In this document: piece by piece, positions 13,473 through 43,361 of the stretch
Layout of the letters: every line of letters begins with the position of its first letter
How positions within the stretch are numbered: position 1 is the stretch's first letter
Assembly: GCA_017549125.1 (NCBI GenBank)
Contig: JAFYVL010000084.1
Location: forward strand, 1 to 43,781
From: Oscillospiraceae bacterium
GTDB lineage: Bacteria > Bacillota > Clostridia > Oscillospirales > Oscillospiraceae
Direction of reading: 5' to 3'
DNA: 43,781 nucleotides
Made by a program: the position numbers and the translations under genes
Notes under the pieces: model-generated
Told to the model about the DNA's origin: nothing
What the model saw: only the letters and a program-made list of their open reading frames with translations
The model's database searches: none

Positions 13473-13501
13473 CACTACTCTCCTATTCCTCATCATTCCT
13501 T

Positions 13502-13532: not shown

Positions 13533-13537
13533 TCACT

Positions 13538-18493: not shown

Positions 18494-18506
18494 CATCATT
18501 CCTCCT

Positions 18507-20036: not shown

Positions 20037-20038
20037 AG

Positions 20039-21824: not shown

Positions 21825-21841
21825 AGACGCTCCTTTCCGGT

Positions 21842-26105: not shown

Positions 26106-26117
26106 GACCGCGCCCCC

Positions 26118-26990: not shown

Positions 26991-27003
26991 AGTGTCGCCC
27001 CCT

Positions 27004-27921
27004 TTACTCAGAACTGCCAAAGAGCTTATAGGCCAGCTTGTTAAACAGCCACACGATGATCAGCAGTAACACAGAAAGTGCCGCAGCATAACCCATTTCA
27101 TAACGAATGAAACCAATGTCATCAATGTGGTTGACGATCAGAGAACCGGCATACTGAGGTGTGGGATTAGAGCCGGAAAGTGCCACACCCAAGCCGGTGG
27201 TATTGAAGGTGTTGACCACCGCCATCACCGCACCAAACAGCATTTGGGACTTGGTGTTGGGAATGGTGATGTAAATAACCTCCTGGACACGGTTAGAGAT
27301 ACCGTCAATGAGGCCTGCCTCATACTGCTCCCTGTCCACATTGAGAATACCAGACAGCATGGACAAAAAGCCGATACCCATACTGGACCACAATGCCACA
27401 AAGATCATAATAGGCATCAGATAGTCCGAAGATTGCAGCCAGGAGACGGGCTCATTGATCAGCCCCATTTGCAGCAGCAGATCGTTTAAATAACCGGTGC
27501 GGTCACCGTTAAACACCGCCACCCAAATAGTGGAGATGGTGACACCGGCGATCAGCGACGGAATGTACAGCACCACCGCCAAAATGGTTCTGGCAGTCTT
27601 TGTGAGCTGGGACAGCATCCAAGCAACCACAAAGGACAGAAGATAGCCGCCAGGTCCTACGATCAATGCATACAAGATGGTGTTGGGCAATATTTTCTGC
27701 ATAAAGACCGTATCTTGAGTAAATGCCCGGATATAGTTCTGCAAGCCCTCAAAGCTGTCAATGGATACGGAGTTGAAATTGGTGAAGGACAATCCTACCG
27801 CCAAAATAATGGGCAGTAGAATGAAGGCAAAAAACAGCAGAAGATAGGCAATCAGCATAACCCAATGAGAACGGGCATCGAAAATATCCCCTATCCGCTT
27901 GGCTTGGGTTCGCAATCTCAT
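27004..27921 (-). CDS. Sugar ABC transporter permease, MalF/UgpA type (pair 1)
   Basis: 305 residues with six predicted helices. The EAA loop is atypical: EAGLIDGISNRVQEVIYITIPN, with Gly for the second Ala and no conserved Gly-Ala. It shares a 4-base ATGA overlap with the tethered binding-protein gene, so these two are translationally coupled and probably work together. Confidence 0.92.
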   Translation of the reverse strand: MRLRTQAKRIGDIFDARSHWVMLIAYLLLFFAFILLPIILAVGLSFTNFNSVSIDSFEGLQNYIRAFTQDTVFMQKILPNTILYALIVGPGGYLLSFVVAWMLSQLTKTARTILAVVLYIPSLIAGVTISTIWVAVFNGDRTGYLNDLLLQMGLINEPVSWLQSSDYLMPIMIFVALWSSMGIGFLSMLSGILNVDREQYEAGLIDGISNRVQEVIYITIPNTKSQMLFGAVMAVVNTFNTTGLGVALSGSNPTPQYAGSLIVNHIDDIGFIRYEMGYAAALSVLLLIIVWLFNKLAYKLFGSSE

Positions 27922-30794
27922 CTGTTTCTCACCTCACTCAAAATTTCCTCTGCGCTGCGCATATCATACTTGCGTATGACCTTGCCGGATTTGTCCAAAT
28001 AACCGAATTGCTGCATACGAATAGCCATTTCCTGGTTGATGGTAAATACCGCCTCGTTTAAAGCTGCACGCTGGGATTGATTTTCATTGACCACACGATA
28101 CCATGCATTACTCAGTTCCCGTTCCAGCATGTAGGTAGCAGGCATGATCCGGTAGTTGGCAGAGCTTTCCCATTGCTGCTGAATGATCTTGGAATGATCC
28201 GACGGGAAGGACATTTGCTTGAAGGCCTCACGGTTGGCGGTGTTCCAGATATATTCAGAGCCGTATTTGGTCTGCAGGGTGTAAGCAAACTGCACCTGGG
28301 TGTCTTCGCTCATCCACCATTTCAGAAATTCCCAGGAGGCATCTGCCTTGGTGGTAGAATTCATAATCAGATCACTGCTGCTGACGGAGATTTGCTGACG
28401 ATTAATACTGCCGTCGTCCTGTAGGACACCGGGTGTCAGAGCGATCTCCCATTTATCCGCAATTTCCGGGGCGGCATACAGCATTTGTATGTAGCCGGAG
28501 AAATCCGTCACGCCGATGGGCATGATACCGTACCGAAAATTGTTATAGAAGCTGGGAGCATTGTTCTGCACACCATAGAGGGTGTACAACTCTGTAAGCA
28601 TAGTGAAGGCCTGGATGCCTGCCTCGGAGTTCAGTTCCGTGGTTAGACCGTCCTGGCTGTAGAGGGATGCACCATACTGCATGAAGAAGGGAGCCACACT
28701 GCCTAAGGGCTTGGTACCGGTGGCACCGGATAGGGGCATATAGAAGGTCATACCCTTACGGCGCAAAACCGGCATGATGTTCTCCACATCCTCCCAGGTC
28801 TGGGGAACATCCAGATCCAGTTTTTCCATGATATCTGCACGGTACATGAGCACATAGAAATTCTTGGTCTCCGGAACACCGTAAATGGCACCGTCATATA
28901 CGAAGGTTTCCAGATCGTAAGCATAGAAGTTTTCATCAATAAAGTCGGCAAAATCGTCAAACTGGGTCAGATCATAGGCCGCGCCTCTGGCACCCAGCTG
29001 ATAGGGTCGATCCGCATCCACACCCAATGCCACATCCGGACAGGTATCCGAGGCATTGGCAAGCAAAAGCTTGCTTTCATTGGGCATAATGGAGAAATAG
29101 ACCTTGATGCCGGTTTTGGGAGTAAACTGGGTGTCTGCCATCAATTGGAGGGTCTCCACATAGGCAATGGGTTTGTTGACCCAGACCGTGATGGCATTGG
29201 GGTCGTCCTGGGCTTCGTCGGAAACACCGTAAGAGCCGTCTCTATGGAGCAGAGAATCCACAAACCGCAGGGTGCCGTGCCACAAACTGTCAAAGAAGCC
29301 TGCATCACCGGCAGGGAGCTTATAATCGTCTCCGTAAAGATAGATCCTGTCCAGAGACATGCCTTGGGACTTGATGCCGGTGACCAGCTGTGCCAGCATG
29401 TCCGTTGCAGAGCCGGAGCCTACGGACAGCTGATTTACATAGGTAGGCAGCTTATCTGTGCGCTCCAATGCCTGCTCAATAATGCCTGCCGCCTGCTTCA
29501 GATTTGCACAGCTGGCAGCAGAGGTGCCGGACATCTGGCTTAATTGGTCATACACAGCCAGCAGCCGCTTGCGAAGGGTCTTTAAATGGTCTGTGACACC
29601 AGGGATGTAAGTCTCGATCTCCCAGGTGCGGTTCACATCCGCATTACTGCCTGCCACCTGCTGCAGATCCAAACCGATCTCCGACAACTCATTGTTGATG
29701 GCATTGATCTCCTGCACGATAGCCTCCATAGAGGGCACGCTGGTAAACATGGAAATGGTGTGGTGGCCCTTGGTCAGATAGACCTTGGCTTTTTTACCGT
29801 CTACCTTGATCACGGCATTTCTGTAGCTACTACCCGTATAGGAGAAGGACACTTCCTTCAATTCTGCATAGGGTGTCTGTCCGTCGATCTCAATATCTCT
29901 GTAAACGGACTGTCCCTCTTTTTGAGACTGGGTGTAGTGGAACGCCAGGTTATACCAGCCGTCCTCCGGTACATCAAATTGCCATACCACCCGCTGTCCT
30001 GCGGTCTTCCAGGAATAATAGTCCACCGCATTTAAAAGCTTCTGGAAGGAGCTGTAGGGATAGCAGGAGGAATTGATATCCGCCTTGGTTCGAACATAGG
30101 AGTCAGACTTGGCAATATAGTTCTCCGCCTCAATGATGATTGCCTGAGAGGGCGTACTGCCATCGTAGGCAGAAATATAGTTTTCGTATGTATCCACCTG
30201 GGGCATTTGGGTCAGCAGAACCTCTTTCAGCAGGATGTCCTGATCGTTATTCTGAATGGTCACCGACCGATCCCCTGCTTCCAAATGGAACGCCACAGGC
30301 TCCAGATCCAAGCTGGCGCAATCCCGGATATAATCGGTCACATAGGCATCCACCTTCACCTGGGAGGGGGTCACCTCGTTATCATAACGATCCAGGATAT
30401 AATCCTTGCTCTCATCACACCATACGCCATTGATATAGCTTTTGACCTGGGTGTTGTCTACCTGGACGGTCATAGTAGCCTGCACAATGGTGTTGCCCTG
30501 GGTCTGATAGGTGATCGCCAGAGCATAATCACCGGTCTTGGGCACCTGCACCGTCAACTCTGCAGTTTCGCCTGCAGCCAAAGCCTGTTCCACCGCATGC
30601 CGCTGGACCACTTCTTCCTGGGGGATCTGCACCCAGTAGGAATGATCAAGTGCCTGCTGCATGCAATCATCAAAGGCAGGTGTTCGATTGTATAAATTGT
30701 CGCTCATACTGGCTACCACCGCAAATAATGCGATCAAAGCTATGAGCAATAAAGCTACGATTCCTAAGATGATATGTTTTTTTCTCACTTGCAC
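27918..30794 (-). CDS. Membrane-tethered sugar-binding protein fused to CBM-like modules
   Basis: 958 residues from GTG 30794, seven bases after AGGAGG; an ATG at 30800 is only one base from it. An uncleaved N-terminal helix (about 8-30) anchors it. Two beta-sandwich modules follow (about 60-200 and 215-365, the second starting IIIEAENYIAKSDSY). A helical, coiled-coil-like spacer comes next (about 375-480). A complete type-1 solute-binding domain (about 560-890) carries DVALGVDADRPYQL and YGVPETKNFYVLMYR. Normal binding proteins are 400-500-residue lipoproteins, so this is about double. The CBM part may hold the glycan near the pore. Confidence 0.85.
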   Translation of the reverse strand: MQVRKKHIILGIVALLLIALIALFAVVASMSDNLYNRTPAFDDCMQQALDHSYWVQIPQEEVVQRHAVEQALAAGETAELTVQVPKTGDYALAITYQTQGNTIVQATMTVQVDNTQVKSYINGVWCDESKDYILDRYDNEVTPSQVKVDAYVTDYIRDCASLDLEPVAFHLEAGDRSVTIQNNDQDILLKEVLLTQMPQVDTYENYISAYDGSTPSQAIIIEAENYIAKSDSYVRTKADINSSCYPYSSFQKLLNAVDYYSWKTAGQRVVWQFDVPEDGWYNLAFHYTQSQKEGQSVYRDIEIDGQTPYAELKEVSFSYTGSSYRNAVIKVDGKKAKVYLTKGHHTISMFTSVPSMEAIVQEINAINNELSEIGLDLQQVAGSNADVNRTWEIETYIPGVTDHLKTLRKRLLAVYDQLSQMSGTSAASCANLKQAAGIIEQALERTDKLPTYVNQLSVGSGSATDMLAQLVTGIKSQGMSLDRIYLYGDDYKLPAGDAGFFDSLWHGTLRFVDSLLHRDGSYGVSDEAQDDPNAITVWVNKPIAYVETLQLMADTQFTPKTGIKVYFSIMPNESKLLLANASDTCPDVALGVDADRPYQLGARGAAYDLTQFDDFADFIDENFYAYDLETFVYDGAIYGVPETKNFYVLMYRADIMEKLDLDVPQTWEDVENIMPVLRRKGMTFYMPLSGATGTKPLGSVAPFFMQYGASLYSQDGLTTELNSEAGIQAFTMLTELYTLYGVQNNAPSFYNNFRYGIMPIGVTDFSGYIQMLYAAPEIADKWEIALTPGVLQDDGSINRQQISVSSSDLIMNSTTKADASWEFLKWWMSEDTQVQFAYTLQTKYGSEYIWNTANREAFKQMSFPSDHSKIIQQQWESSANYRIMPATYMLERELSNAWYRVVNENQSQRAALNEAVFTINQEMAIRMQQFGYLDKSGKVIRKYDMRSAEEILSEVRNR

Positions 30795-30826
30795 GATCAT
30801 TCCTCCTAAAGGCTTGTATCGTAAAA

Positions 30827-30860
30827 GCCAAGGCGGGCGGTTAACCGCCCGCCCCATGGC
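30827..30860 (-). terminator. Intercistronic stem-loop between the two binding-protein genes
   Basis: A perfect 22-base palindrome (30832-30853), extended by GCCA/TGGC at 30827-30830 and 30857-30860, lies 12 bases after the SBP lipoprotein stop. No long T-run. Such GC-rich hairpins after binding-protein genes are known to raise the level of the upstream message relative to the permeases. Confidence 0.65.
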
Positions 30861-30872
30861 GATTCGTAATCA

Positions 30873-32393
30873 TTATTCTGCGTTGTTGGTTTCCCAGGGA
30901 TGGGTCTTGTAGAACTCCTCGATGTTCTTCTGCATACATCTTGAGAAATAAGACCAGGTGCCCTGCATGGCAGCTTCTGCCTTGCTCTGGAAATCATTGA
31001 CCAGGCTGGAAGGATCCTGTCCTGCCTTGACCTGCTCGGTGGCAGCATCACGGAACTGCACAATGTCGTTCCAGTAGTTAGGGATCAGCTTATCGCAGTC
31101 TGCCACATGGATGGTTTCAGGGCGTTCAACGATTGTTTTATACATGTACTTGATACCATTGGTTACAGGGAAGTTATTTTCAAACTCCTCCATAACTTCA
31201 GGATAAGAGCATGCAGGGATGAAGCTATCCCATGTCTTGGAATCTGCTTCATATGCAGCCTTACGCTCCTGCAGCTTGATCATGTTGCCTTCCTTGCTAT
31301 AAGTAATGAACTTCAGGAAAGCATAGGCAGCATCCCGGTTTTCCTCTGTTACCTTGGTGGTCATATAAGCAAAATCAAAGTGGGCCTGAATTTTCTCAGG
31401 CAAGCCGTCGCCGGTGGGAACAGGATAGAAGTCGTATTTATAGTTGGCATTTTCCAACACACGGGTCTCCCAGGAGGAGTGGTTGCCAAACAGCACACGA
31501 CCGGACAGCAATGCGTCTGCGCCCTCACCGAAGCGGCGCTCATACTCGCTGACCTCTCCACCGGTATATTTCAGATCATCAGAAACCAGGGCATACACGC
31601 TCTTCAGCTCCTGAATCAGCTGATTTGCCTTTACCCAGGCCTCCCCTGCATTCAGGTCGATGGTATGATTCTCAAAGGAATAGCCGTACTGATGGTAGCC
31701 CTCGGGAACCATGGCGCTGACCAGCTTGTTGTCCAGACCCCAGGTGGGATGGGCAGCATTATAAATGTAGTTGATGCCGGAGGTAGTAGTGGTGGTGGCC
31801 TTCTTTGCCATTTCCACAAATTCGCTGATTGTCCAGTCGTATTCGGGAACATCCATATTCAGCTGTTCCAGCAGATCCAGGTTCACCGCAATGGCATTGA
31901 ACTGGATCTGGTAAGGCAGGGCGTACACATGACCCTCATAAGTAAAGTTGACCAGGGCCTGATCCATGATGTATTCCTTATCCGGATCCTCCGCGATCAA
32001 ATTGTCCAGAGGATACGCCCAGCCTTCCTGGAGAATGGTACCAAAATGCTCAGAGCCTACGCACACATCGGGCATCTTGCCGCTGCCTGCCAAGGCCATC
32101 ATCTGGTTGATCTGACCCAGCATAGTGCCGGGGATCTCCTGGGGAATGACGGTAACATTGGGGTACATGGTCTTAAAGCCGGCGATCAGCAGATCATACA
32201 GCTCTGCAAAGTCCGCAGTATATCCCACGGTGATGGTACCGGTCAGTTCACCGTCTACGGTTTCCAGTCCCTCCACATTCCCGGACTGGGCAGTCTTACC
32301 GGGCTCCTCGGCTTTTTGCAGGCATGCACATAAGGACATAGCCATGGCGATTGCCAATACCAGGGAAAGCATCTTCTTAAATTTCTTCATCAT
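30873..32393 (-). CDS. Extracellular sugar-binding lipoprotein of ABC transporter
   Basis: 506 residues. Lipoprotein signal with lipobox LCAC (Cys24). The mature part is a type-1 (MalE-like) solute-binding protein: GTITVGYTADFAELYDLLIAG opening, DVCVGSEHFGTILQEGW, and the late FLKFITYSKEGN segment. It delivers an oligosaccharide to permease pair 1 and possibly pair 2. It is the second gene of the operon, 11 bases after the AraC regulator. Confidence 0.92.
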   Translation of the reverse strand: MMKKFKKMLSLVLAIAMAMSLCACLQKAEEPGKTAQSGNVEGLETVDGELTGTITVGYTADFAELYDLLIAGFKTMYPNVTVIPQEIPGTMLGQINQMMALAGSGKMPDVCVGSEHFGTILQEGWAYPLDNLIAEDPDKEYIMDQALVNFTYEGHVYALPYQIQFNAIAVNLDLLEQLNMDVPEYDWTISEFVEMAKKATTTTTSGINYIYNAAHPTWGLDNKLVSAMVPEGYHQYGYSFENHTIDLNAGEAWVKANQLIQELKSVYALVSDDLKYTGGEVSEYERRFGEGADALLSGRVLFGNHSSWETRVLENANYKYDFYPVPTGDGLPEKIQAHFDFAYMTTKVTEENRDAAYAFLKFITYSKEGNMIKLQERKAAYEADSKTWDSFIPACSYPEVMEEFENNFPVTNGIKYMYKTIVERPETIHVADCDKLIPNYWNDIVQFRDAATEQVKAGQDPSSLVNDFQSKAEAAMQGTWSYFSRCMQKNIEEFYKTHPWETNNAE

Positions 32394-32404: not shown

Positions 32405-33295
32405 TCATCCTAAGTTCTTACGATATTGGGAAGCTGTCATACCCACATATTTGTGGAATTGCTTGGAAAAGTATTGGTCGCTCTTGTATCCCAAACGGTC
32501 GGATATCTGCTTGATGGACAGGTTGGTGCGGATCAGAAGATCCTTGGCATTTTCCATCTTGATATTCAGATAGTACGCATAGGGAGTAGAGCCATAGTAC
32601 CGCTTGAACAGTTTATTGGTGTAGTCGTTGGATCGGTAAATGGACGCGGATATTTCATCCATATTCAAATCGATCTGATAGTTATTATCAATAAACTGCT
32701 TGATCGCCTGTGCTTCCTCCGGTATCTGATGGTCTCTGGTCTCATGGATACACAGCCGGTTGAGCAGCTTGAACACCAGCATACCGCACCGCTCCATGGT
32801 ATCCTCCACCGGCAAATTTTGTTTGCTCAGTTCAAAGATCTCCTCAAAGATAGGGCTCAGCGCCTCACAACGGGAATACAGCACCTTCTTGTGCAAGCGA
32901 AAGGACTGGATCAGACTGGGTACCGCCGTACCCTTCAGGTTAATAAATATCTTTGTCCAGGGATCCGATGCACTGGAGCGATAGGAATGATGGGTATTCT
33001 CATTGAGAATATAGATATCCCCTGCTTTGGGCTCATAGGTTTCGTCCCCCACACGCAATGTGCCGGTGCCCTTGTAAATGTACTCGATAACTGTTACATC
33101 GGATTTTTCCCTGTCTATCCGGTAATACCTGTTGCAATAAGACACGCCTGCCATTTCCACCCAAAAAGGCGGAATCTTATCCGGCAGCAAAAAGGAATAT
33201 ACATCTTCAAACTTGTAAACGGAACCTGCCACATTCTCCACCCTCACCCGATTTTTTATATACCGCTCCCGGCAATACCACCCTCTTGCAAACAC
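32405..33295 (-). CDS. AraC-family transcriptional regulator with cupin sensor
   Basis: 296 residues. The N-terminal cupin-like sensor (about 40-130) includes GTGTLRVGDETYEPKAGDIYILNENTHHSYR. The C-terminal double helix-turn-helix (about 195-296) has ASIYRSNDYTNKLFKRYYGSTPYAYY and ISDRLGYKSDQYFSKQFHKYVGMTASQYRK. It probably activates the locus when sugar binds the cupin. It heads the operon under a promoter carrying the 34-bp box shared by four promoters here, implying autoregulation. The start is uncertain: the longest frame begins with GTG at 33295 without a clear ribosome site, and later GTG codons (33247 and beyond) are possible. Confidence 0.92.
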   Translation of the reverse strand: MFARGWYCRERYIKNRVRVENVAGSVYKFEDVYSFLLPDKIPPFWVEMAGVSYCNRYYRIDREKSDVTVIEYIYKGTGTLRVGDETYEPKAGDIYILNENTHHSYRSSASDPWTKIFINLKGTAVPSLIQSFRLHKKVLYSRCEALSPIFEEIFELSKQNLPVEDTMERCGMLVFKLLNRLCIHETRDHQIPEEAQAIKQFIDNNYQIDLNMDEISASIYRSNDYTNKLFKRYYGSTPYAYYLNIKMENAKDLLIRTNLSIKQISDRLGYKSDQYFSKQFHKYVGMTASQYRKNLG

Positions 33296-33344: not shown

Positions 33345-33408
33345 ATTATAGATTATGTGCGCCGTACTATGCAATGCCATATATAATTTATTATCTTCCA
33401 AATACAAT
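33345..33408 (-). promoter_or_regulatory. Promoter P1 of the AraC-led operon with 34-bp operator box
   Basis: Minus strand: the box runs 33408-33375 (ATTG, A, TTG, later AATT and ATAT). It abuts -35 TTGCAT (33374-33369), an 18-bp spacer and -10 TATAAT (33350-33345). It matches P2, P3 and P4 position by position except for ATTA in place of the second ATTG. Confidence 0.75.
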
Positions 33409-33482
33409 TTAGCAGAGCATTTTTCCCTTTATTTTCCGTCTATTTACAATTTGAATACTGTCTTTTTTGCGTTGGATGCCAT

Positions 33483-33653
33483 TTATACCACCCGGTTGCG
33501 AAGCTCCCCGCCGGTCAAACATGCCACCACATTCTCGGCACAGATCTCGCTGACTGCGCTGATAGCCTCTTTGGAATACATGCCGATATGGGGCGTCACC
33601 ACCACATTTTCCAGGCTCAGCAACGGATGATCAGCGGTCATGGGCTCGGTTTG
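33483..33653 (-). pseudogene. 3' remnant of a D-isomer-specific 2-hydroxyacid dehydrogenase
   Basis: The reading frame ending at 33483 encodes EPMTADHPLLSLENVVVTPH and continues IGMYSKEAISAVSEICAENV. This is the typical C-terminal catalytic-His segment and closing helices of phosphoglycerate/2-hydroxyacid dehydrogenases. Only about 55 of over 300 residues remain. Upstream, in another frame, LQKIMDGKIIAIAR resembles the start of KDPG-type aldolases, so two decayed genes may be fused. An intact promoter (P2) still points into it. Confidence 0.7.
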
Positions 33654-33749
33654 CCACCTTTCGGGCAATGGCAATGATCTTGCCATCCATAATCTTTTGC
33701 AAGGTAGTTTTATTCTTGGTGTTCGTCCCCTTCTATATACTGTGAACTC

Positions 33750-33812
33750 AGTATAAAACAAGAAAAACACCACCGCAACGGCATATGCAATTGGAAATGT
33801 TACAAATACAAT
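33750..33812 (-). promoter_or_regulatory. Promoter P2 with 34-bp operator box, upstream of the dehydrogenase remnant
   Basis: Minus strand: the box 33812-33779 abuts -35 TTGCGG (33778-33773), a 17-bp spacer and -10 TATACT (33755-33750). Direct ATTG half-sites begin at box positions 1 and 22, and ATAT is at 27-30. It starts two bases after the isomerase terminator. Confidence 0.75.
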
Positions 33813-33814
33813 TT

Positions 33815-33844
33815 AACCGCCCGAAAATTAACTTTCGGGCGGTT
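33815..33844 (-). terminator. Rho-independent terminator of the isomerase gene
   Basis: Perfect 12-bp stem AACCGCCCGAAA/TTTCGGGCGGTT (33815-33826 with 33833-33844), 6-base loop, followed on the minus strand by AAATTGTATTTG. It closes the one-gene isomerase unit. Confidence 0.8.
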
Positions 33845-33855
33845 CATTTATTCCA

Positions 33856-34701
33856 TTATTCCATATCTATAAGCATTTTACCGATTCGGCAGGCCCGGGC
33901 ATAGGCCATCGCCAAATACTGTTCATAGGGCATTTGTCCATAGGGGTCATTTTCATGTCTGCCGGGCTTGGATCTGAGATTCAGTTCAAAGGTCAGAATA
34001 TCCGTAAATCCGCATTTTTGAAGCCGCTGGGCGATATACTTCCAATCTGCCACCCCGTCGAAGGGCAGTAAATGCAGATCGTCCAGCCAGGTGATCTTTC
34101 CGTCAAAATCCTTGATGCCCAGATTGTCATTGAGATGGGTACACAGCAGACGGTCACCATATTTTGCCAGCATATCCTGAGAATAATTATAGCACATCTC
34201 ATGGCCGGAATCCCAGCAGAAACCCACCGTATCATCATTGGCAAAATGGGTCATCAGCGCATCTAAAAATTCCATACCCTCCACATTTTCAAAGGCAATC
34301 TTAATGCCCCGCTGGCGAGCATAGTCTACCACCTGACCGTAACGCGCCAAGCCGATCTCGGTCACATCATGCCTGTCAAAGCCCACAAAGGGATGCACCA
34401 CCAGAATGGGAGCCTGCACAGCTACACAATGATCTACACAGGTCTGCAGCTTTTTTACACCTCGCTGTGCTTTCTCGTCCTCTGCGTGCCACAGCTCTGC
34501 CGCCATATCCCAGGGCGCATGCACAGATTGAAAACGCATATCCAGCTCCTTAGCTTTCTTTGCCAATCCCAGCATATCCACATCCGGGTCGCATATAACA
34601 AAAAAGCCATCAAAACCGGTGTTTTTCAGCATTTCCAGCTGGTCAATAAAGCCGATCCCGCAGGCACGACTCAAGCCTAAGGCAAACTGTTTTTTCCACA
34701 T
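33856..34701 (-). CDS. Sugar phosphate isomerase/epimerase, TIM barrel
   Basis: 281 residues from ATG 34701, 11 bases after AGGAGG; a GTG at 34710 is only two bases from it. Metal ligands are visible in order: Glu in IAFENVEG, Asp in CWDSGHE, His in CTHLNDN and Glu in LTFELNL. Same superfamily as the protein at 5094-5960 but clearly divergent. Own promoter with the shared box and own terminator, so a separate member of the same regulon. Substrate unknown. Confidence 0.85.
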   Translation of the reverse strand: MWKKQFALGLSRACGIGFIDQLEMLKNTGFDGFFVICDPDVDMLGLAKKAKELDMRFQSVHAPWDMAAELWHAEDEKAQRGVKKLQTCVDHCVAVQAPILVVHPFVGFDRHDVTEIGLARYGQVVDYARQRGIKIAFENVEGMEFLDALMTHFANDDTVGFCWDSGHEMCYNYSQDMLAKYGDRLLCTHLNDNLGIKDFDGKITWLDDLHLLPFDGVADWKYIAQRLQKCGFTDILTFELNLRSKPGRHENDPYGQMPYEQYLAMAYARACRIGKMLIDME

Positions 34702-34727
34702 AGCATCCACCGCCTCCTTTTTTACCC

Positions 34728-34790
34728 ATCATACACCAAAGAAACACCGGACGCAAGGATATATGCAATATCAATTCTGCCAAATCCAAT
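34728..34790 (-). promoter_or_regulatory. Promoter P3 of the isomerase gene with 34-bp operator box
   Basis: Minus strand: the box 34790-34757 abuts -35 TTGCGT (34756-34751), a 17-bp spacer and -10 TATGAT (34733-34728). ATTG half-sites lie 21 bp apart, with an extra TTG at box positions 8-10. Confidence 0.78.
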
Positions 34791-34809
34791 TATTCCCACC
34801 GGCTTGGTA

Positions 34810-34839
34810 TTGACATATTCATTGGTTTACCACTATTAT
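34810..34839 (+). promoter_or_regulatory. Possible promoter of the GH36 remnant
   Basis: TTGACA (34810-34815), 18-bp spacer, TATTAT (34834-34839). The expected start point would fall inside the ribosome site, so this assignment is tentative. No 34-bp box in this orientation. Confidence 0.4.
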
Positions 34840-34856
34840 CTATAGGAGGTATGTAT

Positions 34857-35120
34857 ATGGCTATTCACTATTGTGAAGAAACCCGGCAATTCTATTTGCA
34901 TACCCATAACACCAGTTATGTGATGGAATTATATGAGGGGCTTTTGGCGCATAGTTATTGGGGGCGATCCGTAGACAGCATCCCGGTTTTGGATCCCGAC
35001 ACCTTCTACACCGACAGCAAGGGTAACACCTTCCAAGGCAAGACTTTGATGCATTTGGGGATTCCTGTGGACACCCGTGCAGATTTTAAAGAAGCCTTGA
35101 TGGTATTTGAAAAACAATAA
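34857..35120 (+). pseudogene. GH36 alpha-galactosidase with large internal deletion
   Basis: 87 residues from ATG 34857 (AGGAGG seven bases upstream). The first half (IHYCEETRQFYLHTHNTSYV and LLAHSYWGR) matches the N-terminal beta-sandwich start of GH36 alpha-galactosidases. The second half (FYTDSKGNTFQGKTLMHLGI, then RADFKEALMVFEKQ) matches their extreme C-terminus. About 600 residues including the whole catalytic barrel are missing, but the frame is intact across the junction near base 34975. It is a clean in-frame deletion scar and is not expected to be catalytic. Confidence 0.75.
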
Positions 35121-35127
35121 CTTCTAA

Positions 35128-35477
35128 CAGAGGTCGATAAAGCCGTCAAGACAAGCAACTCGACCCCGAAGTGTATGTGGATACTCGAGAGGGGAGCGAT
35201 GGGAGCGCCGCCAGTGGCGGAAAAAGCGACCTGAGCGAGTGGCAGCGGTCGGTGAGCGACGCTGGCGTTTGCGCCAAGGAGAACACCGGGCACCGCAACA
35301 GGATCGAGTTGTGAAGTAAGTCAAACCACCTTGCGTAGCAAGCTTTTTAGGAGAACGGATTGCCACACCAGTCTGCGGACTGGTACGCAATGACGCATCG
35401 AAATACTTGCGGTGCAAAACGAACCGCCAATCATCAAACGCTGTGTTTTGACGATTGGCGGCTTTTTCGACACTCTG
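35128..35477. mobile_element. 350-bp MITE-like element with imperfect terminal inverted repeats
   Basis: The left end (35128-35150) and the reverse complement of the right end (35477-35454) agree over about 20 bases (CAGAG, GTCGA, AAAGCCG) with one indel and a few mismatches. The interior is GC-rich and full of small hairpins, for example CCGCCA/GGCGG and ACCAGTC/GACTGGT at 35367-35384. No credible protein. It resembles dispersed intergenic repeats of gut Oscillospirales. No clear target duplication. A plus-strand terminator-like hairpin (35424-35461 plus five Ts) forms its right end. Confidence 0.55.
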
Positions 35478-35519
35478 AAAAAATCTCCAATCGCCATGAA
35501 AGACGATTGGAGATTTTTT
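35478..35519 (-). terminator. Terminator of the giant surface-protein operon
   Basis: A 16-bp perfect stem (35478-35493 with 35504-35519), with A-run and T-run flanks, lies eight bases after the stop of the minus-strand gene. It can also work on the plus strand. Confidence 0.88.
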
Positions 35520-35527
35520 ATTGCATA

Positions 35528-38500
35528 TTATGCTGCGTAATTCTTGATCTTATCAATATTCCAATTCAGTTCATAGCCGGACAGCATAGCCTGGACAGCC
35601 AGGATCTGCTGGGCGGTATAATCTCCGATATTGGCATTGACAGATTCTACCAGATCCTTCAAGGTCATGGTATACTCCGCACTTTCAATGACCGTGCCAT
35701 CGTTCAGAACCAGAACTACCTGTGCGATCAGGTTGGTGTCACCATAGCCCATCACATCATAGTTCTTCACACGCAGGGTCAGTTCCTTATTGGAAACAAA
35801 GCCGCTCCGGGTTCTGGAAACGGTGTTGCCGCCCTCCAGACGCAGACGGTAGCCGTAGGAAGCCACCTGGCTTTCGATGGCATCACTGCCTACGAACAGA
35901 GCCTTATAACCAACGCCGGTGACATTGGGTGCCAGGCTAGTCTTGGTAATGCCCATGTAGAAGCGGTTGAAGGTGTAGCCGCCGTCAGCAGTTTCCACAG
36001 CCATGTAACGACGGATAGCGCCGGTCAGTTCGGTCTTGAACTCCTTAACAGGAATCATGCCACAGTTCATGATGCCGCCGGTTGCGCCATAGGCATCGGT
36101 AGTGGTGTCCATACCGTAAACCAGGTATTCGCCAGCTTGAATGTTGCCGCTCAAGCTGCAACCATTCATGTCAATATACAGATCCTTGTTCAGAGTAATC
36201 TGCACATTGGTCAAGCTGCTATACAGCTTCACATACTGACCTTCGCCGCAATTTTCAACAGCCTGTGCCAGCGTCTCATAGTAGGTAATATCCGTACCGT
36301 TGACCACTGCTGCGTTCATAACATAGATGTTATCAGCAGCGGAGGTATTGCCCATATAGCTCTTCATGGTGCTGTCCTGGGCGGTCAGCTTGCTAAAGCT
36401 TGCATCATAGGCAGCCTGTCCCACAAAGTAGATGGCAGTATTCTCATTGGAGAAGGGATCGGGAGAACCGGCATAGCGGCTGTGAGCATAGACACCACGA
36501 TCCACATTGGAGCTGCAGGCCAGGTTCACGCCCTCATAGATGTACACATTGATATTGCCTTCCACATGGCGGTCGGTCGCAAAGCCGGAACCGCTGGTGT
36601 TGTTATAGCAGCCACCGTATACACGGCGCAGGATGGTGCCGCCCTTCAGATAGATGTTTACATTGCCGTTTAAGTTGGCATGGGCCCATTCGTGACCGCC
36701 AAATACCTGATCCATGGTACCGCCGTTGATGGTAATGGTAATCTGGCTGCTCTTGGCACCGGGGCCGTAAATGTTGCCGCCGTAGATACCCATATAAGTA
36801 CCGCCGTTGACGGTCACATTGGCATCATTCACATCGCACCAGTCGGCGCTACGCTTGCCGCTGCCGCCGCCCATGACCTTCAATGCCTTGGCGTTGTCCT
36901 GAACGGTCACATTGGTCTTTTCCACCCAACCTCTGCGGGAGCCGCCATAAATGGTATTGGGAATGTCGTGGTTGTTGACATTGATACCTGCATTCACGTT
37001 ACCACCTACGACCAGCTTTGCTTCACCGGTCACAGTGGTGTTATTACCTGCGCCGCCACCGTTACCGCCGTAGATGCTATCCCATGTGCCGGACAGCACG
37101 GTCAGGTCAGTAGATGCAACGCTGCCGGTGCTGACACCGCCGAAAATCAGTGCCATGCCCTTAACTGTAACATCGGAATCGATCTTAGTGGTATAGCCGT
37201 TACAGAAAATTTCTGCATTGTCTGCAACCTTCAGGGTCATACCCTTAAAAGTAACAGCGCTGTTGATATTCACTATGCTCAGATTGGACAGATCCAGGGT
37301 GCCACCGGTGATGGTCACAGCCTTGTCATTTTCATACCATGCAAAATCTGCATCTGCAGTCCATGTACCTACAATGTGGATGGTGCCGCCCTTGGCAACA
37401 CGGATCATAGCCGCGGTCAGAGATGCCACAGGATCAGCCTCCGTACCGGCTGCAGTGTCATCGCCGTTGAGGCTCACATATACATCCTGCTTCAGATTTG
37501 CCCAGTTCATGGGATCTACCTGCTCAGCAGCCAGGGTAATACCGCCATAGACACTCAGAGCGCCCATATCGCACCAGAAGTTACCGTCGTAGCTGTGCTC
37601 GTACATAGAGGTGACCACGACCGTATGCTTACCGGCAGTCAGATACTGGGTCCACATGGGATTGTTGTTGACAATATAGCCGGAATTATCACAGACATAC
37701 TTCTGATACTTGATGCCGTCCACGATCAGCAGCAAATGACCCTCGTCTGCATCGGCAACGGTCTTGGTAATCAGGTGGGTCTGCAGATCATAGTAGCCGT
37801 CTACGGGAACTTCCACGGTGTATGCCACATAGGGCACACCGGACAGCTCATAGATGGGCAGGTTGGCGCCGTCAAAGGTGTAGACCTCTACGCCGCCCAG
37901 GTAAGTAGAACGGTAGGCATAGCCTGCGGCCTCGGTATTTTCCAGGGTGTTCACAGTCCACTTATTCACAAACTGAGACTGACCGGGCAGCAGATGGTTC
38001 ACGGAGCTGACAATGCCGGTAGCCTGACTGGGGCCGTAAATATCCATATAGTCATGATCCATCCAGCTGACCATAGCCGCATTGTCTGCGGTGCAGGAGA
38101 TCATGCGGATCACATTGCGGCCCTTGACCAGCTCCACATTCAAGGTTGCCTTGCCCACCATATTATTAGATGCGGAGTAATCTGCGCCAGCATCTCTGGG
38201 AGCAAAGGGTACGGTAGTAAAGGTCTGGTCATTGATGCTTGCGGTGATGGCATAATCACCCACCGTATAATTGGAGGTGGTTGCAATATTGTACACATAT
38301 TCAATGGTATAAGTACCAGCCTGCTCCACTTCCACGGTATAGGTAACCATGGGGTGACCCACAGCATTGCCAAAGCCCTTATGGGCCTGCAGCTGCTCCA
38401 GGGTCATCATCTTGGAGGCATCCTTTGTCATATTGCCAACCACAGAGCCGGAAACCTTGTAACGGTTGAGAACACCGTGGGTCTCTGCCTGCAGGGTGGC

Positions 38501-38983
38501 CTTATAGGTGGCCGCACCAATGTTCACAGAAATATTCTCTGTGTCCTCTAGGTCACTGCCATCGGTAAAGCAGAGAATATAACGGACGCTGTAATTGAGC
38601 GTGCTGTTGCCTGCCACATCAGCAATAGACAAGCTGCAGAGCTTCGTTCCTTTTGCCATAGAGACACCGGAAGCGGTGGGAACAGCCAGAATGGTAGTCT
38701 TGCCATTTTTGGCTGTCTTTGCTTCTACATTTACATTTTCCATGTCAGAGGATACCGTGACCTTCTTGCTGGCTTCGGGAGTCAGCACCAACTGCACATA
38801 GTCCACTGTCTTGCCCTCCGGCAGGTTGGTCAGGGTCACATCCACAGTGGCTACGCCGTCGCTTAGAGATACAAATTCCAAATCCACACAGCCTTCTGTG
38901 GCTGCGCCTGCGGAAAAACCAAAGAAAGCCATCAGCACTGCCAGACAAATGGCAGCGGTAATAATCTTATTTTTCATTTTCAT
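35528..38983 (-). CDS. Secreted beta-helix surface protein with CBM-like modules
   Basis: 1151 residues; ATG 38983, nine bases after AGGAGG. Signal peptide (1-27). A cohesin/Ig-like beta-sandwich (about 30-155) and two CBM-like modules (about 160-325 and 330-500) come next. A parallel beta-helix region (about 505-880) has YVSLNGDDTAAGTEADPVAS and repeated NGGTxxxIYGG/VFGG rungs. The C-terminal domain (about 980-1130) has YMAVETADGGYTFNRFYMGI, a type recurrent in gut clostridial secreted proteins but uncharacterised. No anchor or LPxTG. It could be a polysaccharide lyase or a binding scaffold; no catalytic residues are evident. The CBM-like pair closely resembles that of the CE2 protein made from the same operon, 22 bases upstream. 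Confidence 0.75.
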   Translation of the reverse strand: MKMKNKIITAAICLAVLMAFFGFSAGAATEGCVDLEFVSLSDGVATVDVTLTNLPEGKTVDYVQLVLTPEASKKVTVSSDMENVNVEAKTAKNGKTTILAVPTASGVSMAKGTKLCSLSIADVAGNSTLNYSVRYILCFTDGSDLEDTENISVNIGAATYKATLQAETHGVLNRYKVSGSVVGNMTKDASKMMTLEQLQAHKGFGNAVGHPMVTYTVEVEQAGTYTIEYVYNIATTSNYTVGDYAITASINDQTFTTVPFAPRDAGADYSASNNMVGKATLNVELVKGRNVIRMISCTADNAAMVSWMDHDYMDIYGPSQATGIVSSVNHLLPGQSQFVNKWTVNTLENTEAAGYAYRSTYLGGVEVYTFDGANLPIYELSGVPYVAYTVEVPVDGYYDLQTHLITKTVADADEGHLLLIVDGIKYQKYVCDNSGYIVNNNPMWTQYLTAGKHTVVVTSMYEHSYDGNFWCDMGALSVYGGITLAAEQVDPMNWANLKQDVYVSLNGDDTAAGTEADPVASLTAAMIRVAKGGTIHIVGTWTADADFAWYENDKAVTITGGTLDLSNLSIVNINSAVTFKGMTLKVADNAEIFCNGYTTKIDSDVTVKGMALIFGGVSTGSVASTDLTVLSGTWDSIYGGNGGGAGNNTTVTGEAKLVVGGNVNAGINVNNHDIPNTIYGGSRRGWVEKTNVTVQDNAKALKVMGGGSGKRSADWCDVNDANVTVNGGTYMGIYGGNIYGPGAKSSQITITINGGTMDQVFGGHEWAHANLNGNVNIYLKGGTILRRVYGGCYNNTSGSGFATDRHVEGNINVYIYEGVNLACSSNVDRGVYAHSRYAGSPDPFSNENTAIYFVGQAAYDASFSKLTAQDSTMKSYMGNTSAADNIYVMNAAVVNGTDITYYETLAQAVENCGEGQYVKLYSSLTNVQITLNKDLYIDMNGCSLSGNIQAGEYLVYGMDTTTDAYGATGGIMNCGMIPVKEFKTELTGAIRRYMAVETADGGYTFNRFYMGITKTSLAPNVTGVGYKALFVGSDAIESQVASYGYRLRLEGGNTVSRTRSGFVSNKELTLRVKNYDVMGYGDTNLIAQVVLVLNDGTVIESAEYTMTLKDLVESVNANIGDYTAQQILAVQAMLSGYELNWNIDKIKNYAA

Positions 38984-39005
38984 GGTTATTTACCTCCTGC
39001 CTTTC

Positions 39006-42000
39006 TTAGTTCCAACCCATAAGGGTTGCAATTTCTGCGGCCAGAGTTTCGCCGATAGCCTGCTGACCAGCCACACTGGGGTGACTCCACAGGCCATCCT
39101 GATAAGTGGGAAGCTGCACATAGCTTACCTGCATAGCAGCATCCTTACCCTGGTTATAAGCATTGATTGCGGAAATGATCCATTCTTGCTTGCTGTCGCC
39201 ATCCATATTGGATGTGGTGCCCATAGCACCATATGCCCAAATGATTTTTGCATTGGGATTTGCAGCACGAACCTGATTGATCATCACTGCCACATCGGTC
39301 ATATACTGCTCAGCCGTAACAACAAGGTTTCCATTATTATCCTTCAAAGTGGCATCGTTGGTGCCCAGGTTAATGACTACCACATCTGGCTGCCACTGAC
39401 TATGATCGTAGTCGCCCAGTTCGATCAGCATGGACTGTTCATCATAAATGCGAGTAATGGACTTATTCTCTACATCTGCGCTTGCAGAACTGGAGAAATA
39501 CCAGCCACCGCTTGCGATGCTGTAATAATCAGCATCCAGCGCATCTGCTGTTACATTGGCATAGGAGTAGTAGGAATAGGTTTTATCTGTGTAAACACCG
39601 TCAGTAACGATACCCAAAGGATCGTGGCTCTTGGTCACTACGCCGAAGCCAGCGGTGATGGAGTCGCCCACAAACTGGATCTTGCGGGTCTTAGCCTGTG
39701 TCTGCTGCAGGCTGCCGGTATAGCTGACACTGTAAATATACAGGCCGCCATTCTTAGAGTCCACACTCTTGGATACCGCAATAGTATGCTCGCCTGCTTC
39801 CAAAGAGGATGCAATCTTCAGAGTCTGCTGCGTGTAGAAGGTATCCAGGTCGAAATACACACCCTCACCGCCGTCGATCTGCACGAACAGACCGGGCTCA
39901 TTCTTATCGTTGATGCCTGCGCTATGCATAACGGTCATATACACATCACCGGAGAAATTACCGGTCATGGTAAAACTGGAAGCAGAAGGTTCCAGGTACA
40001 GCGCACTACCCACCTTGGTGGGTCTGCCAACAGGATTGGTGTAGGCAAGCAGTGCATCTGCACCCACAGAAGCATTCTGGTAAGCAATACCATCAGCAAA
40101 AATTGCCTGCTTGATATTTGCCAGCAATGCGCTCTGATCCTCACCTGCCAAATGCTTTTCATTGACGATCTTCAGATCACGAATATCAATAACGCCATCG
40201 CTGTTCTGATCCAGCTCATTGATCACGGTTACGGTATAATATGTGCCGCTGGCATAAGCGACCACAGCACCGTTAGGAACTGCATCGGTATCTGCCAGTA
40301 CATCGCCCTGGCTGTCAGTGACGGTAACATCGCCATGGAAATTGCTCTTGAGCATCAGCACATTTACATTGCCGCCAATGGTAACACCACCGTTTTCAAT
40401 GGTATATACAGAGCCTTCCACCAAGCCCTCGGGAACCTGCATCAGAGTAATGGGGTCGATCTGGGTCTGTGCCAGCTTTACGTCCTCACCATACACGGTC
40501 AAAGCTGCAATGTCGCACCAGGTAGCACCGGATTCGCAAATCGCAGAAATCAAAATGGTATGGATACCCTGGGTCAGATAAGTGGTCAGATTCTGCTTAT
40601 TCTTCTTGAAGCCCTCAGCAACCTCCGCTACAGGCATCTTATACTTCACACCATCGATCACCATAATGATGTAACCGGAAGCTTGAGCACCGGTGTTCAT
40701 GGTGGTGTGCATATCATAGTAGCCATCTGCAGGAATATCCAGGGTATAGCTGACCCATGCCAGTTCCTTGATCGTGGTGTAGTCCAGCATATCGTAGGTC
40801 ATGGTGATCTTCTCAATGCCGCCCAGGTAGCTCTTTGCCCAATCGTAGGTGCTGCCGGAATTGACGTTGGTATAGCCGTTATAGTAGGCAGCCTCACCGG
40901 ACTGGAAGTAGTTAACCGTCTGGGTCACAGGGGTCACCTTCTGATCGCCATCGATCTCAATATAGTCCTGGTTCAGCCAGCTGACAGAGGCATTGTTATC
41001 CGCATTCACAGAGATCATGCGGATCACATTGTAGCCCTTTTCCAGCTGCACGGTGATCTCGCTCTGTGCCCAGCCATTGGACTCAGACTCATAGGGGGCA
41101 TAAGCCATCTGATAGAAATTCTTGTCATTGACAGATGCGGTCATGTAATAATCCGCCATGTCATAACCGGAGTTCATTGCCACTCGGTACACGCTGCGCA
41201 GCGTATAGCTGCCTGCCTCGGGGGCATCCACCATGTAGGAGACATAAGCAATGCCGGACTTGTCTACCAGGCCCTTCTCCTGCATATCCGCAAAGGTCTG
41301 CATATGGGTAGGATCGTAATTGATACCACCCACCACTGTGCCGCTCTTACCGGCTTCATTGCTGGAGGTATAACGGCCGATCACACCGTTTTCTGCTTCC
41401 AGGCGCACCGGTCTTTTTACCTCAGATGCCTTATCCACGGTAACCACCTGCAGATCGGTATCTACAAAGATACAGTCCACATTGACCCAGTCGCTGCCGC
41501 TCTTGCGCTGGTCAGCGGTCATGGGGATAAAGGTGATCTCGTTGATGCCTTCCTGCAGGGTCAGCTCCGTATTATAGGTATCGTAGGTCCAGTTATACTG
41601 GGCATTCTTATCAAAGAAGCTCTGGGCGCCAAAGGCACCGTTTACCATGAATACAGAATAGGGATCTTCTTTCCAAGTCTTGCTGGTGCTGTCCCAGATG
41701 CCGGGGTTATTCAGGCGATAACGAGCCTTAAAGGTGTATGTACCGGCTGCAGGCGCATCTACATAAATGGTGACACCGGAAACCGAATCCTTATCTACCG
41801 TACCGGCCTTGATCTGAGCCAGCGAAGGATTGAAGATGGTGTTGCCGCCACCGATGACCTTGCCTGCCGCATTGCGGTAATCACGCTTGGCATCGTTATT
41901 GTTTTCCGTATTATTATAGGTATGCCACAGGGCATAGCCTTCGTTCTTATACTCCGCCTCGGCGTACCACCAATCCATCTTGGGATTGGACTGGATCACA

Positions 42001-43178
42001 GCCTTTTGCAAGCCGCCGTGCAGGTACAGCTCGTTGTAGTTGAACCAGGATATATTATTACCGCAGGTATCAGCAGATGTGCGCTTGGCAGGCGCAGTAA
42101 ATGTCAGCACATGGTTACCCTCTGCCAGGTATACAGACATATTTACCTTACCGCCGGAGCCGGCTGCATTATCTACATGATTAAACTCAAAGGCATAGGG
42201 TTTGCCGTCCACTAACAATCCCAAAGCCCGGGTATTGGACTTACCGTCTGCGCTGTCGTACTCTGCTGTGATGTCATAATAGCCATCTTCCGGAGCGTTG
42301 ACCGTATAGGTAAAGCTTCTGAGCTTTTCCACATTGGAGGTGCTCATATTGGAAACAGGAATGGTATTGTCACCCCAGCCACCGTCACCGACAGAGCCAC
42401 CGGCATTGATGGTGGTATAACCATATACATAGGGTGCATCACCGGCACGCAGAACGGTTTCCTGCGCCTTGACCGGCTCTACAGCATACTGACCGGAAAT
42501 CTTCAGATAGTCCACATTGCCCCAAGCGCAGGTAGCGCTCGTCTGGGTCTTTGACTCATCTGTCCAGTTGGCAGGACCGTCCTGCTCAAAGGTTATGGGC
42601 TGAACATAAATTACATTCAGACCCTTTTGCAGAGTAACCGCAACCTCTTCTGTTTTACAGTAACTTCTTCTGCTTGCCACAGTGTTGCCGCCAATGTAGT
42701 TGGCTTTATAAGCAACGGTCGCATCAGGATCCGTCATCTTTTGGGAAGGGTTGACTGCAAATGCAGTATAGTAGTTTTCGCCACCGTTTGCTGCAACCTC
42801 CAAATAATTCTTTGTGCCGTAGAATGTACCGGCAGAAGACAGATAATAGGTGCCCGTCTGTTCTGCTCTGACATAAAATGCCACAAAGGTACTGTTGGAT
42901 TTGTCGATGAAACCGTTGACCAAGTCCTTATCGGAATTGGGATCATCGAACCAGCCAAAGTATCCGCCAGAGGCGCCGGCCGCCATCAAACCGCCGGATG
43001 CACTGGTGTTAGCCTCCGTTTTGGAATACCTGTTCCAAACAGCATATTCCGTGTTCTCTGCCTCAATGGTTACATACTGCTTGTTTTCTGCAGCCTGGGT
43101 CGTAATCCCCAGAACCGGAACGCAGGACAGCAGCAAACACAGGCAAAGGCTCATTGCTAGAATTCGCTTAAAATTCAT
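39006..43178 (-). CDS. Multimodular secreted CE2-type carbohydrate esterase with dockerin-like loop
   Basis: 1390 residues from ATG 43178 (AGGAGG seven bases upstream; the upstream in-frame ATG at 43199 lacks a site). Signal peptide about 1-30. Five CBM-like modules follow (about 35-235, 240-400, 405-590, 590-745, 745-910), three opening with EAEN/EAEY. A dockerin-like calcium loop DQNSDGVIDIRD lies near 1000. A CE2-style jelly roll (about 1060-1160) precedes the SGNH catalytic domain: Ser1173 in GDSITAG, LGTND, and His1366 in DGLWSHPS. CE2 enzymes remove acetyl groups from plant polysaccharides such as acetyl-xylan or acetyl-mannan. Promoter P4 carries the regulon box. Confidence 0.85.
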   Translation of the reverse strand: MNFKRILAMSLCLCLLLSCVPVLGITTQAAENKQYVTIEAENTEYAVWNRYSKTEANTSASGGLMAAGASGGYFGWFDDPNSDKDLVNGFIDKSNSTFVAFYVRAEQTGTYYLSSAGTFYGTKNYLEVAANGGENYYTAFAVNPSQKMTDPDATVAYKANYIGGNTVASRRSYCKTEEVAVTLQKGLNVIYVQPITFEQDGPANWTDESKTQTSATCAWGNVDYLKISGQYAVEPVKAQETVLRAGDAPYVYGYTTINAGGSVGDGGWGDNTIPVSNMSTSNVEKLRSFTYTVNAPEDGYYDITAEYDSADGKSNTRALGLLVDGKPYAFEFNHVDNAAGSGGKVNMSVYLAEGNHVLTFTAPAKRTSADTCGNNISWFNYNELYLHGGLQKAVIQSNPKMDWWYAEAEYKNEGYALWHTYNNTENNNDAKRDYRNAAGKVIGGGNTIFNPSLAQIKAGTVDKDSVSGVTIYVDAPAAGTYTFKARYRLNNPGIWDSTSKTWKEDPYSVFMVNGAFGAQSFFDKNAQYNWTYDTYNTELTLQEGINEITFIPMTADQRKSGSDWVNVDCIFVDTDLQVVTVDKASEVKRPVRLEAENGVIGRYTSSNEAGKSGTVVGGINYDPTHMQTFADMQEKGLVDKSGIAYVSYMVDAPEAGSYTLRSVYRVAMNSGYDMADYYMTASVNDKNFYQMAYAPYESESNGWAQSEITVQLEKGYNVIRMISVNADNNASVSWLNQDYIEIDGDQKVTPVTQTVNYFQSGEAAYYNGYTNVNSGSTYDWAKSYLGGIEKITMTYDMLDYTTIKELAWVSYTLDIPADGYYDMHTTMNTGAQASGYIIMVIDGVKYKMPVAEVAEGFKKNKQNLTTYLTQGIHTILISAICESGATWCDIAALTVYGEDVKLAQTQIDPITLMQVPEGLVEGSVYTIENGGVTIGGNVNVLMLKSNFHGDVTVTDSQGDVLADTDAVPNGAVVAYASGTYYTVTVINELDQNSDGVIDIRDLKIVNEKHLAGEDQSALLANIKQAIFADGIAYQNASVGADALLAYTNPVGRPTKVGSALYLEPSASSFTMTGNFSGDVYMTVMHSAGINDKNEPGLFVQIDGGEGVYFDLDTFYTQQTLKIASSLEAGEHTIAVSKSVDSKNGGLYIYSVSYTGSLQQTQAKTRKIQFVGDSITAGFGVVTKSHDPLGIVTDGVYTDKTYSYYSYANVTADALDADYYSIASGGWYFSSSASADVENKSITRIYDEQSMLIELGDYDHSQWQPDVVVINLGTNDATLKDNNGNLVVTAEQYMTDVAVMINQVRAANPNAKIIWAYGAMGTTSNMDGDSKQEWIISAINAYNQGKDAAMQVSYVQLPTYQDGLWSHPSVAGQQAIGETLAAEIATLMGWN

Positions 43179-43298
43179 TGCATTTCCTCCTTTGATCATT
43201 CAGCGGCATATTTGCCGCAAAAGATTACAAACCACAGATGGAAGGTTTTTTGTGAAATCTTACAAAAACCAACAGGCACCTATAATCCGTTTAATTGT

Positions 43299-43361
43299 AT
43301 TCTACAAAGAAAGCAACACCTAAACAACGGAATATCCAATTAAAAAACTGTCAATTACAAT
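43299..43361 (-). promoter_or_regulatory. Promoter P4 of the CE2/surface operon with 34-bp operator box
   Basis: Minus strand: the box 43361-43328 abuts -35 TTGTTT (43327-43322), a 17-bp spacer and -10 TAGAAT (43304-43299). It leaves a leader of about 115 bases before the CE2 start. Half-sites ATTG are at box positions 1 and 22. Confidence 0.75.

Follow-up and report, generated by a model that had tools for sequence, protein, structure and literature searches.

A 21-bp direct repeat at four promoters of an Oscillospiraceae carbohydrate locus, a candidate operator of its AraC-family regulator

The DNA considered here, called the window throughout, is a stretch of 43,781 nucleotides from an Oscillospiraceae bacterium (assembly GCA_017549125.1, contig JAFYVL010000084.1, positions 1 to 43,781 of the forward strand), and its contig ends where the window ends. 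Its minus strand carries araC, a gene for an AraC-family protein at the head of an operon for ATP-binding cassette (ABC) transporters and glycoside hydrolases (GHs), together with the remnant of a deleted gene pair, an isomerase-like gene, and an operon that includes a carbohydrate esterase family 2 (CE2) protein. Four promoters of this locus, listed below with araC, share one sequence of 34 bp (the box), which comparison of sequences makes very probably the operator of the araC product, the AraC-family protein of 32405-33232. A preliminary description of the window had placed four such boxes on the minus strand at coordinates that prove correct: they align without gaps, each directly abuts the TTG of a -35 element, and the invariant positions assigned to them are valid across all four, while the sequence bears out the spacers (18, 17, 17 and 17 bp) and the -10 elements (TATAAT, TATACT, TATGAT and TAGAAT). 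The ATTG it gave for the second half-site is found in three boxes, but box 1 has ATTA. Likewise, the AraC gene that it set at the head of the first operon is present, but the start it chose, at 33295, is better replaced by the GTG at 33232, as in both relatives described below.

32405..33232, minus strand: araC, with a predicted AraC_binding (cupin-like) domain and an AraC-type helix-turn-helix (HTH) domain
33345..33374, minus strand: promoter P1, with -35 TTGCAT, an 18-bp spacer and -10 TATAAT
33375..33408, minus strand: box 1, at the promoter of the araC/transporter/hydrolase operon, putatively autoregulatory as judged from its sequence and from orthologous boxes
33750..33778, minus strand: promoter P2, with -35 TTGCGG, a 17-bp spacer and -10 TATACT
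33779..33812, minus strand: box 2, at the promoter of the deleted aldolase/dehydrogenase pair, starting just past a hairpin at 33815-33844
34728..34756, minus strand: promoter P3, with -35 TTGCGT, a 17-bp spacer and -10 TATGAT
34757..34790, minus strand: box 3, at the promoter of the isomerase-like gene isoB, the weakest of the four boxes
43299..43327, minus strand: promoter P4, with -35 TTGTTT, a 17-bp spacer and -10 TAGAAT
43328..43361, minus strand: box 4, at the promoter of the CE2/surface-protein operon, with orthologous boxes in the relatives G044 and G016

The box is a direct repeat with a period of 21 bp. Among ten aligned boxes from three species, self-identity is 0.65 at an offset of 21 and at most 0.47 at the other offsets from 3 to 27, the next best being 14, which bears out the earlier proposal of direct half-sites starting 21 bp apart and agrees with published AraC-family motifs (PMC3870299). 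The half-sites, two helical turns apart, follow a pattern of about ATTGTATTTG-N11-ATTGTATATT. Invariant across the ten boxes are positions 1-4, 6, 8, 9, 13, 22, 23, 27, 28, 30 and 33 together with the TTG of the -35 element, which every one of them directly abuts; position 10 is G in seven and T in three, and positions 24 and 29 each deviate in one box of the ten. Beyond that TTG, none of the four -35 hexamers of the window agrees with TTGACA. A further word, GGTGTT, in the spacers of boxes 2 to 4 was considered as a second element and dropped, as the orthologous promoters in G044 and G016 did not show it.

The genome to which the window belongs (G000) is a draft of 2,288,503 bases in 93 contigs, 71.5% complete. 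A 33-bp pattern of the box has four exact matches in it, which are the four boxes; no match has a single mismatch, two have two and 12 have three, and the reversed pattern, used as a control, has four matches at up to three mismatches and none at up to two. A random scatter of the box over the genome, away from promoters, had been named in advance as grounds for giving up the idea; instead, all four exact sites lie in this locus. Because the pattern was drawn from the very sites on which it was scored, the fair test is a matrix or model made from the sites of other species alone. With a matrix of the six sites of G016 and G044, scored on both strands, the four boxes take the first four places in the window at 48.2, 42.6, 27.9 and 15.6 bits, the next match reaching 2.7 bits. 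When a relatives-only sequence model was applied to the whole genome, with 150 of 845 candidates scored, boxes 4, 1 and 2 were found at E-values of 2.7e-8, 9.2e-7 and 2.8e-5, box 4 being the best match among the candidates scored. Box 3, the one at 15.6 bits in the window, comes fourth at an E-value of 0.87, beside a background match at 0.96, which makes it the weakest of the four. Boxes 1, 2 and 4 are supported by this outside evidence, and box 3 relies on its position.

A search of 136 genomes of the genus, the window's own included, found orthologues of the cluster in two others, G016 and G044. Absence of conservation in relatives, the other ground on which the proposal was to be dropped, is contradicted by both, in which the box is kept at orthologous promoters. 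At araC it lies at C14:19438 in G044 and at C71:2078 in G016, the latter with two mismatches from the pattern; at the aldolase/dehydrogenase genes, upstream of araC, at C14:21274 and C71:298; and at the CE2 operon, at C14:30454 and C87:6451. The core promoters are conserved with it, P1 in its -35, its -10 and its 18-bp spacing, P2 in its TATACT and P4 in both hexamers, all identical across the three species, so that promoter-specific features (the 18-bp spacer at araC, TATACT, TAGAAT) remain with their gene.

Pairwise identities outline a footprint at the araC, aldolase/dehydrogenase and CE2 promoters, for which three species provide orthologues. Half-site 1 is identical at 106/117 positions and half-site 2 at 112/126 (about 90%), as are the -35 hexamer at 48/54 and the -10 at 54/54; the corresponding figures are 37/63 for the middle between the half-sites, 82/156 (53%) for the spacer, 140/360 (39%) for the 40 bp upstream and 155/270 for the 30 bp downstream. 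These figures bear on whether the likeness of the boxes is merely inherited, through promoter duplication within the cluster or a short divergence, with no regulator reading them. The crowding of the four sites into one 10-kb stretch, the GGTGTT word in three of the four window spacers and the persistence of box 2 over a deleted gene pair would all suit such an origin. Nonetheless we hold it to be very unlikely, given half-sites about 90% identical between species beside upstream regions at 39% and spacers at 53%, a GGTGTT word confined to the window among the orthologous promoters compared, and a box 2 that heads intact genes in both relatives.

The product of araC has an N-terminal cupin-like domain (AraC_binding, PF02311, 54.1 bits against a cut-off of 21.1) and a C-terminal HTH (HTH_18, 72.2 bits against 33.6; HTH_AraC, 56.5 bits against 26.6), and by these two domains it is a predicted member of the sugar-responsive branch of the AraC/XylS family. 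It is not E. coli AraC itself, since it scores 73 bits with the equivalog model of that protein (NF007860), whose cut-off is 208. In the genus its distribution follows that of the box: exact boxes, with G or T at position 10, occur in 3 of the 136 genomes (four in G000, three in G044 and two in G016), and no other genome has either an AraC match of at least 76% identity (matches of any kind at E 1e-20 being present in 11) or the first binding protein of the cluster at E 1e-60, both of which these three have. A model of all ten sites, applied to the 136 genomes under stricter filters with 50 candidates scored per genome, returned the ten at 30.5-36.5 bits, a site in G003 (C21:3415) at 25.2 bits and all others at 19.0 or less. 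A scan of genome contigs found G016, G044 and one distant match at 20% identity.

Outside the three species the surroundings of AraC-like genes look different. No box scoring at least 6 bits was found at fifteen further AraC-like loci, of which two are the same G017 gene, two are cut by contig ends and one is from the window's own genome. Among 400 genomes drawn evenly from the family, the own genome included, a search at E 1e-45 found one further AraC, that of G502, at 38% identity, and inspection by eye of its upstream region revealed not this box but a different repeat word at 21 bp, resembling GTTCGCCCT. GTTTCA-like words repeated at 21 bp were likewise observed upstream of paralogous, more distant AraC genes (G000 C76, G044 C34). 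Such repeats at other AraC-like genes are weak two-copy matches of other sequence, at 8 or 9 of 10 positions, and may be chance, a match of that kind being expected, by our rough estimate, in about one region in four.

A fourth species, G088, has an AraC 60% identical to that of the window, and no match to the first binding protein was obtained from its genome, which is only 62% complete. Its araC promoter bears a changed box, ATCAAATTTG-N11-ATCGAATATG, followed by TTGCAC-18-TATAAT, and a search of G088 with this form found three sites and no control match: the araC site itself, one at a Gfo/Idh/MocA oxidoreductase gene lying immediately upstream of araC, and one at a promoter on contig 87. 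Self-identity among the three is 0.64 at 21 bp and at most 0.46 at other offsets, and two of them directly abut the TTG of a -35 element. The first half-site reads ATYARATTTG in all three, as against about ATTGTATTTG in the standard boxes, and the second ATCRAATATG in two of the three. In the AraC alignment, the two regions that hold the recognition helices hardly vary among the three species that carry the standard box (SNDY[TSA]NKLFKRY and SDQYFSKQFHKYVG) and differ in G088 (SNDYVKKQFKQF and SDRYFSKRFREITG). Being a single event, this is no more than suggestive of the local AraC as the reader of the box. That a regulator and its operator have drifted together here, with the half-sites and both recognition-helix regions changed in G088 and nearly constant in its sister species, is a tentative reading to which we would give slightly less than an even chance; G088 is in any case a small natural experiment on the joint change of AraC-type operators and recognition helices, and, were co-drift true, the clade could teach base by base how AraC helices select their operators.

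Several observations weigh against the assignment of the box to the local AraC, beyond the background rank of box 3 and the 71.5% completeness of the genome scanned. The cluster, the AraC and the box are all confined to the same three species, so their co-occurrence cannot single out AraC within the cluster. A loosened pattern has a single one-mismatch match in each of six further genomes of the genus (G003 and five others), and matches at up to two mismatches are found in 75 of the 136, which is the background level. No clear half-site 1 is seen at the isoB promoter of G044. In G088, the second and third sites deviate by two and three mismatches from the pattern derived from the first; the variant box on contig 87 (6122-6152) has its best -35 (TTGCGA, 17-bp spacer, TATAAT) 11 bp further downstream, about one helical turn; and the gene behind it has no Pfam match.

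Two more such observations concern whether the boxes are operators of another regulator, AraC-type or other, encoded elsewhere, of which the local araC would be merely a target. At E 0.001 the own genome holds 28 AraC-like matches, and the strong G003 site (C21 3415-3451) stands in a genome with no AraC match at E 1e-20, on a contig that also encodes, some 3 kb from it, a response regulator containing an AraC-type domain (best match E 9.9e-17); a GH94 gene and a hairpin precede the site, and behind it no clear target gene was seen on that contig. We nevertheless consider such a regulator improbable, because the site lies in the promoter of araC itself in three species and is changed in a fourth whose AraC has changed too, the fifteen further AraC-like loci lack it at the threshold given above, no additional site occurs in the own genome, and exact boxes track this AraC orthologue across the genus.

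We therefore return to the local AraC and ask how it might act. Two AraC subunits would lie side by side on the direct repeat, the second half-site adjoining a poor -35 element as in class II activation by AraC, and the cupin-like N-terminal domain would bind an oligosaccharide product of the locus substrate, whereupon RNA polymerase would be recruited to four promoters, those of the regulator's own uptake and breakdown operon, of the aldolase/dehydrogenase pair (deleted here), of the isomerase-like gene and of the CE2 surface operon. Repression, with the protein covering the -35 element and leaving on inducer binding, would also account for a box that abuts the -35, and the -10 elements are near consensus. 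Three points make this unlikely: the poor agreement of all four -35 elements with TTGACA; the position of the direct repeat, ahead of the promoter, an arrangement taken as activation for AraC-type regulators (PMC8579813); and the G088 promoter that lies about one helical turn further from its box, which is better suited to an activator than to an occluding repressor.

Activation by AraC-type proteins from such sites has familiar counterparts. In E. coli, araI1-araI2 consists of 17-bp half-sites separated by a 4-bp gap and overlaps the -35 element. The E. coli half-site sequence differs from that of the window, whereas the two systems share an AraC_binding domain joined to an AraC-type HTH and two direct half-sites before the promoter at a spacing of 21 bp (PMC4760080). 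The AraC-family rhamnose regulators of Bacillales, Bacteroides and Enterococcus have motifs, found comparatively, that are direct repeats with 21-bp periodicity; like the predicted sugar regulator of the window, each has a 21-bp direct-repeat motif of its own, comparatively derived, but their target genes are others, and the likeness is one of geometry (PMC3870299). Caldicellulosiruptor bescii has AraC-family carbohydrate regulons whose tandem repeats, lying ahead of mapped promoters, have been taken to mean activation; they resemble the window in having local regulators of operons with ABC transporters and hydrolases, and differ in species and substrates (PMC8579813).

The genes that the proposed activator would serve are these:

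5094..32393, minus strand: operon 1, following araC and provisionally a single transcript
33483..33700 (approximate limits), minus strand: deletion remnant, in which the start of a KDPG/KHG-type aldolase gene, a short internal stretch and the last part of a D-2-hydroxyacid dehydrogenase gene survive
33856..34701, minus strand: isoB, a xylose-isomerase-like TIM-barrel protein, starting at ATG 34701 by comparison with G044; the open reading frame (ORF) was listed from GTG 34710
35528..43199, minus strand: operon 4, encoding a CE2_N/GDSL esterase protein (39006-43199) and another large protein, which matches no Pfam family (35528-38983)

Operon 1 encodes two solute-binding proteins, two ABC permease pairs, NHL/Yip1 and DUF5696 proteins, a GH30 enzyme, a protein with a carbohydrate-binding module (CBM35), GH2, GH13 and GH3 enzymes, a CN-hydrolase/GDPD protein and the isomerase-like isoA. 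A strong terminator-like hairpin at 5032-5005 lies past isoA, and the operon may extend to about 5005; weaker terminator-like and promoter-like matches within it leave a single transcript unproved. The order araC, two binding proteins, permeases, NHL/Yip1, DUF5696, permeases, GH30 and CBM35 gene is shared with G016 and G044, and continues to GH2, GH13 and GH3 in G016; in G044 the comparison stops after the CBM35 gene, at a contig end. The G016 homologue of the GDPD gene is on a different contig, upstream of the CE2 box. In the GH3 enzyme (window 7705-10293, minus strand) the C-terminal domain precedes the N-terminal one, and the start of its ORF overlaps the GH13 ORF, so that one start or end is probably misplaced.

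The preliminary description had linked the transporter/hydrolase operon, an isomerase, a decayed gene and the CE2 operon through the box, and sites are indeed present at all of them, but that of the isomerase is weak. Its decayed gene is decayed, but it is not one gene: the orthologues of box 2 in G016 and G044 head an intact KDPG/KHG-type aldolase and D-2-hydroxyacid dehydrogenase (PF01081 and PF02826 for the G044 proteins), of which the window keeps a remnant. A hairpin ends shortly upstream of box 2 in all three species, the relatives being judged by eye. In G044 and G016 as well, the box is followed by orthologues of both operon 4 proteins. In the isoB promoter of G044, half-site 2 and the TTG are kept, starting 63 bp before the ATG and scoring 20.0 bits, the fourth best match of a half-site scan of that contig, in which the fifth reached 17.9 bits; a search of G016 for isoB at E 1e-20 came back empty, which shows little. 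Box 3 may be a shared site, partly decayed or partly built, or a gain special to this genome, and we find the two equally likely.

The substrate can be guessed from the enzymes. For GH30 the nearest solved sequence is 5ngk (162 bits), and the endo-1,6-beta-glucanase model gives 231.5, below its cut-off of 700; the nearest to GH2 is the beta-glucuronidase 7xyr (448 bits), to GH13 oligo-1,6-glucosidases and alpha-glucosidases, and to GH3 beta-glucosidases. A KDPG-type aldolase would suit a sugar-acid route, hence our guess, made with low confidence, that the substrate may be a beta-linked glycan bearing glucuronate. Such prediction is helped by the link between one uptake locus and metabolic genes outside its transporter operon (aldolase, dehydrogenase, isomerase-like), as well as a large operon for CE2 surface proteins.

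With predicted activities, the window has the parts of a Gram-positive polysaccharide-utilization locus (gpPUL): GH30, GH2, GH3, GH13 and CE2 domains, the transporter domains SBP (solute-binding protein) and BPD_transp_1, and an AraC regulator. Published gpPULs likewise combine hydrolases, ABC transporters and an AraC regulator, and include examples with CE2 (Ros-3) and with GH2/GH3 (Ros-5); the set found here, GH30, GH2, GH3, GH13 and CE2 with two transporters, matches no row in the seen part of Table 2 (PMC5320581). Word searches of open-licence papers, which made no use of the motif letters, showed no description of this locus among the results listed. To our knowledge, the regulators of polysaccharide loci have been little studied in this group of Oscillospiraceae. 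The product of araC is most likely an autoregulated, sugar-responsive AraC-type activator of a gpPUL in a probable gut bacterium, a kind of system already well known, so that the new AraC-type regulon of the preliminary description is supported by conservation, geometry and co-occurrence, but is new only as a member of a well-known class. It offers for testing one regulator and four operators with defined half-sites, in Oscillospiraceae seen here only as metagenome assemblies.

Some features near these genes may be recorded. Window positions 35110-35330 are a multi-copy repeat with 36 matches in the own genome, pieces being counted apart; five copies, itself included, are of about 200 bases or more, and three start less than 130 bases from a contig start. 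Probably it is a repeat, mobile or intergenic, at which the assembly breaks. A short ORF beside it (34851-35120, plus strand) matches part of a GH36 C-terminal domain and is probably a gene fragment. A scan of the window with Rfam found no family at gathering score; two strong hairpins lie at 43544-43700, near the contig end and upstream of box 4. At the opposite end, a LRR-Roc-COR protein (476-3694, plus strand), whose domain order we take to be LRRK2-like, adjoins a Fic-domain ORF at 3887-4825.

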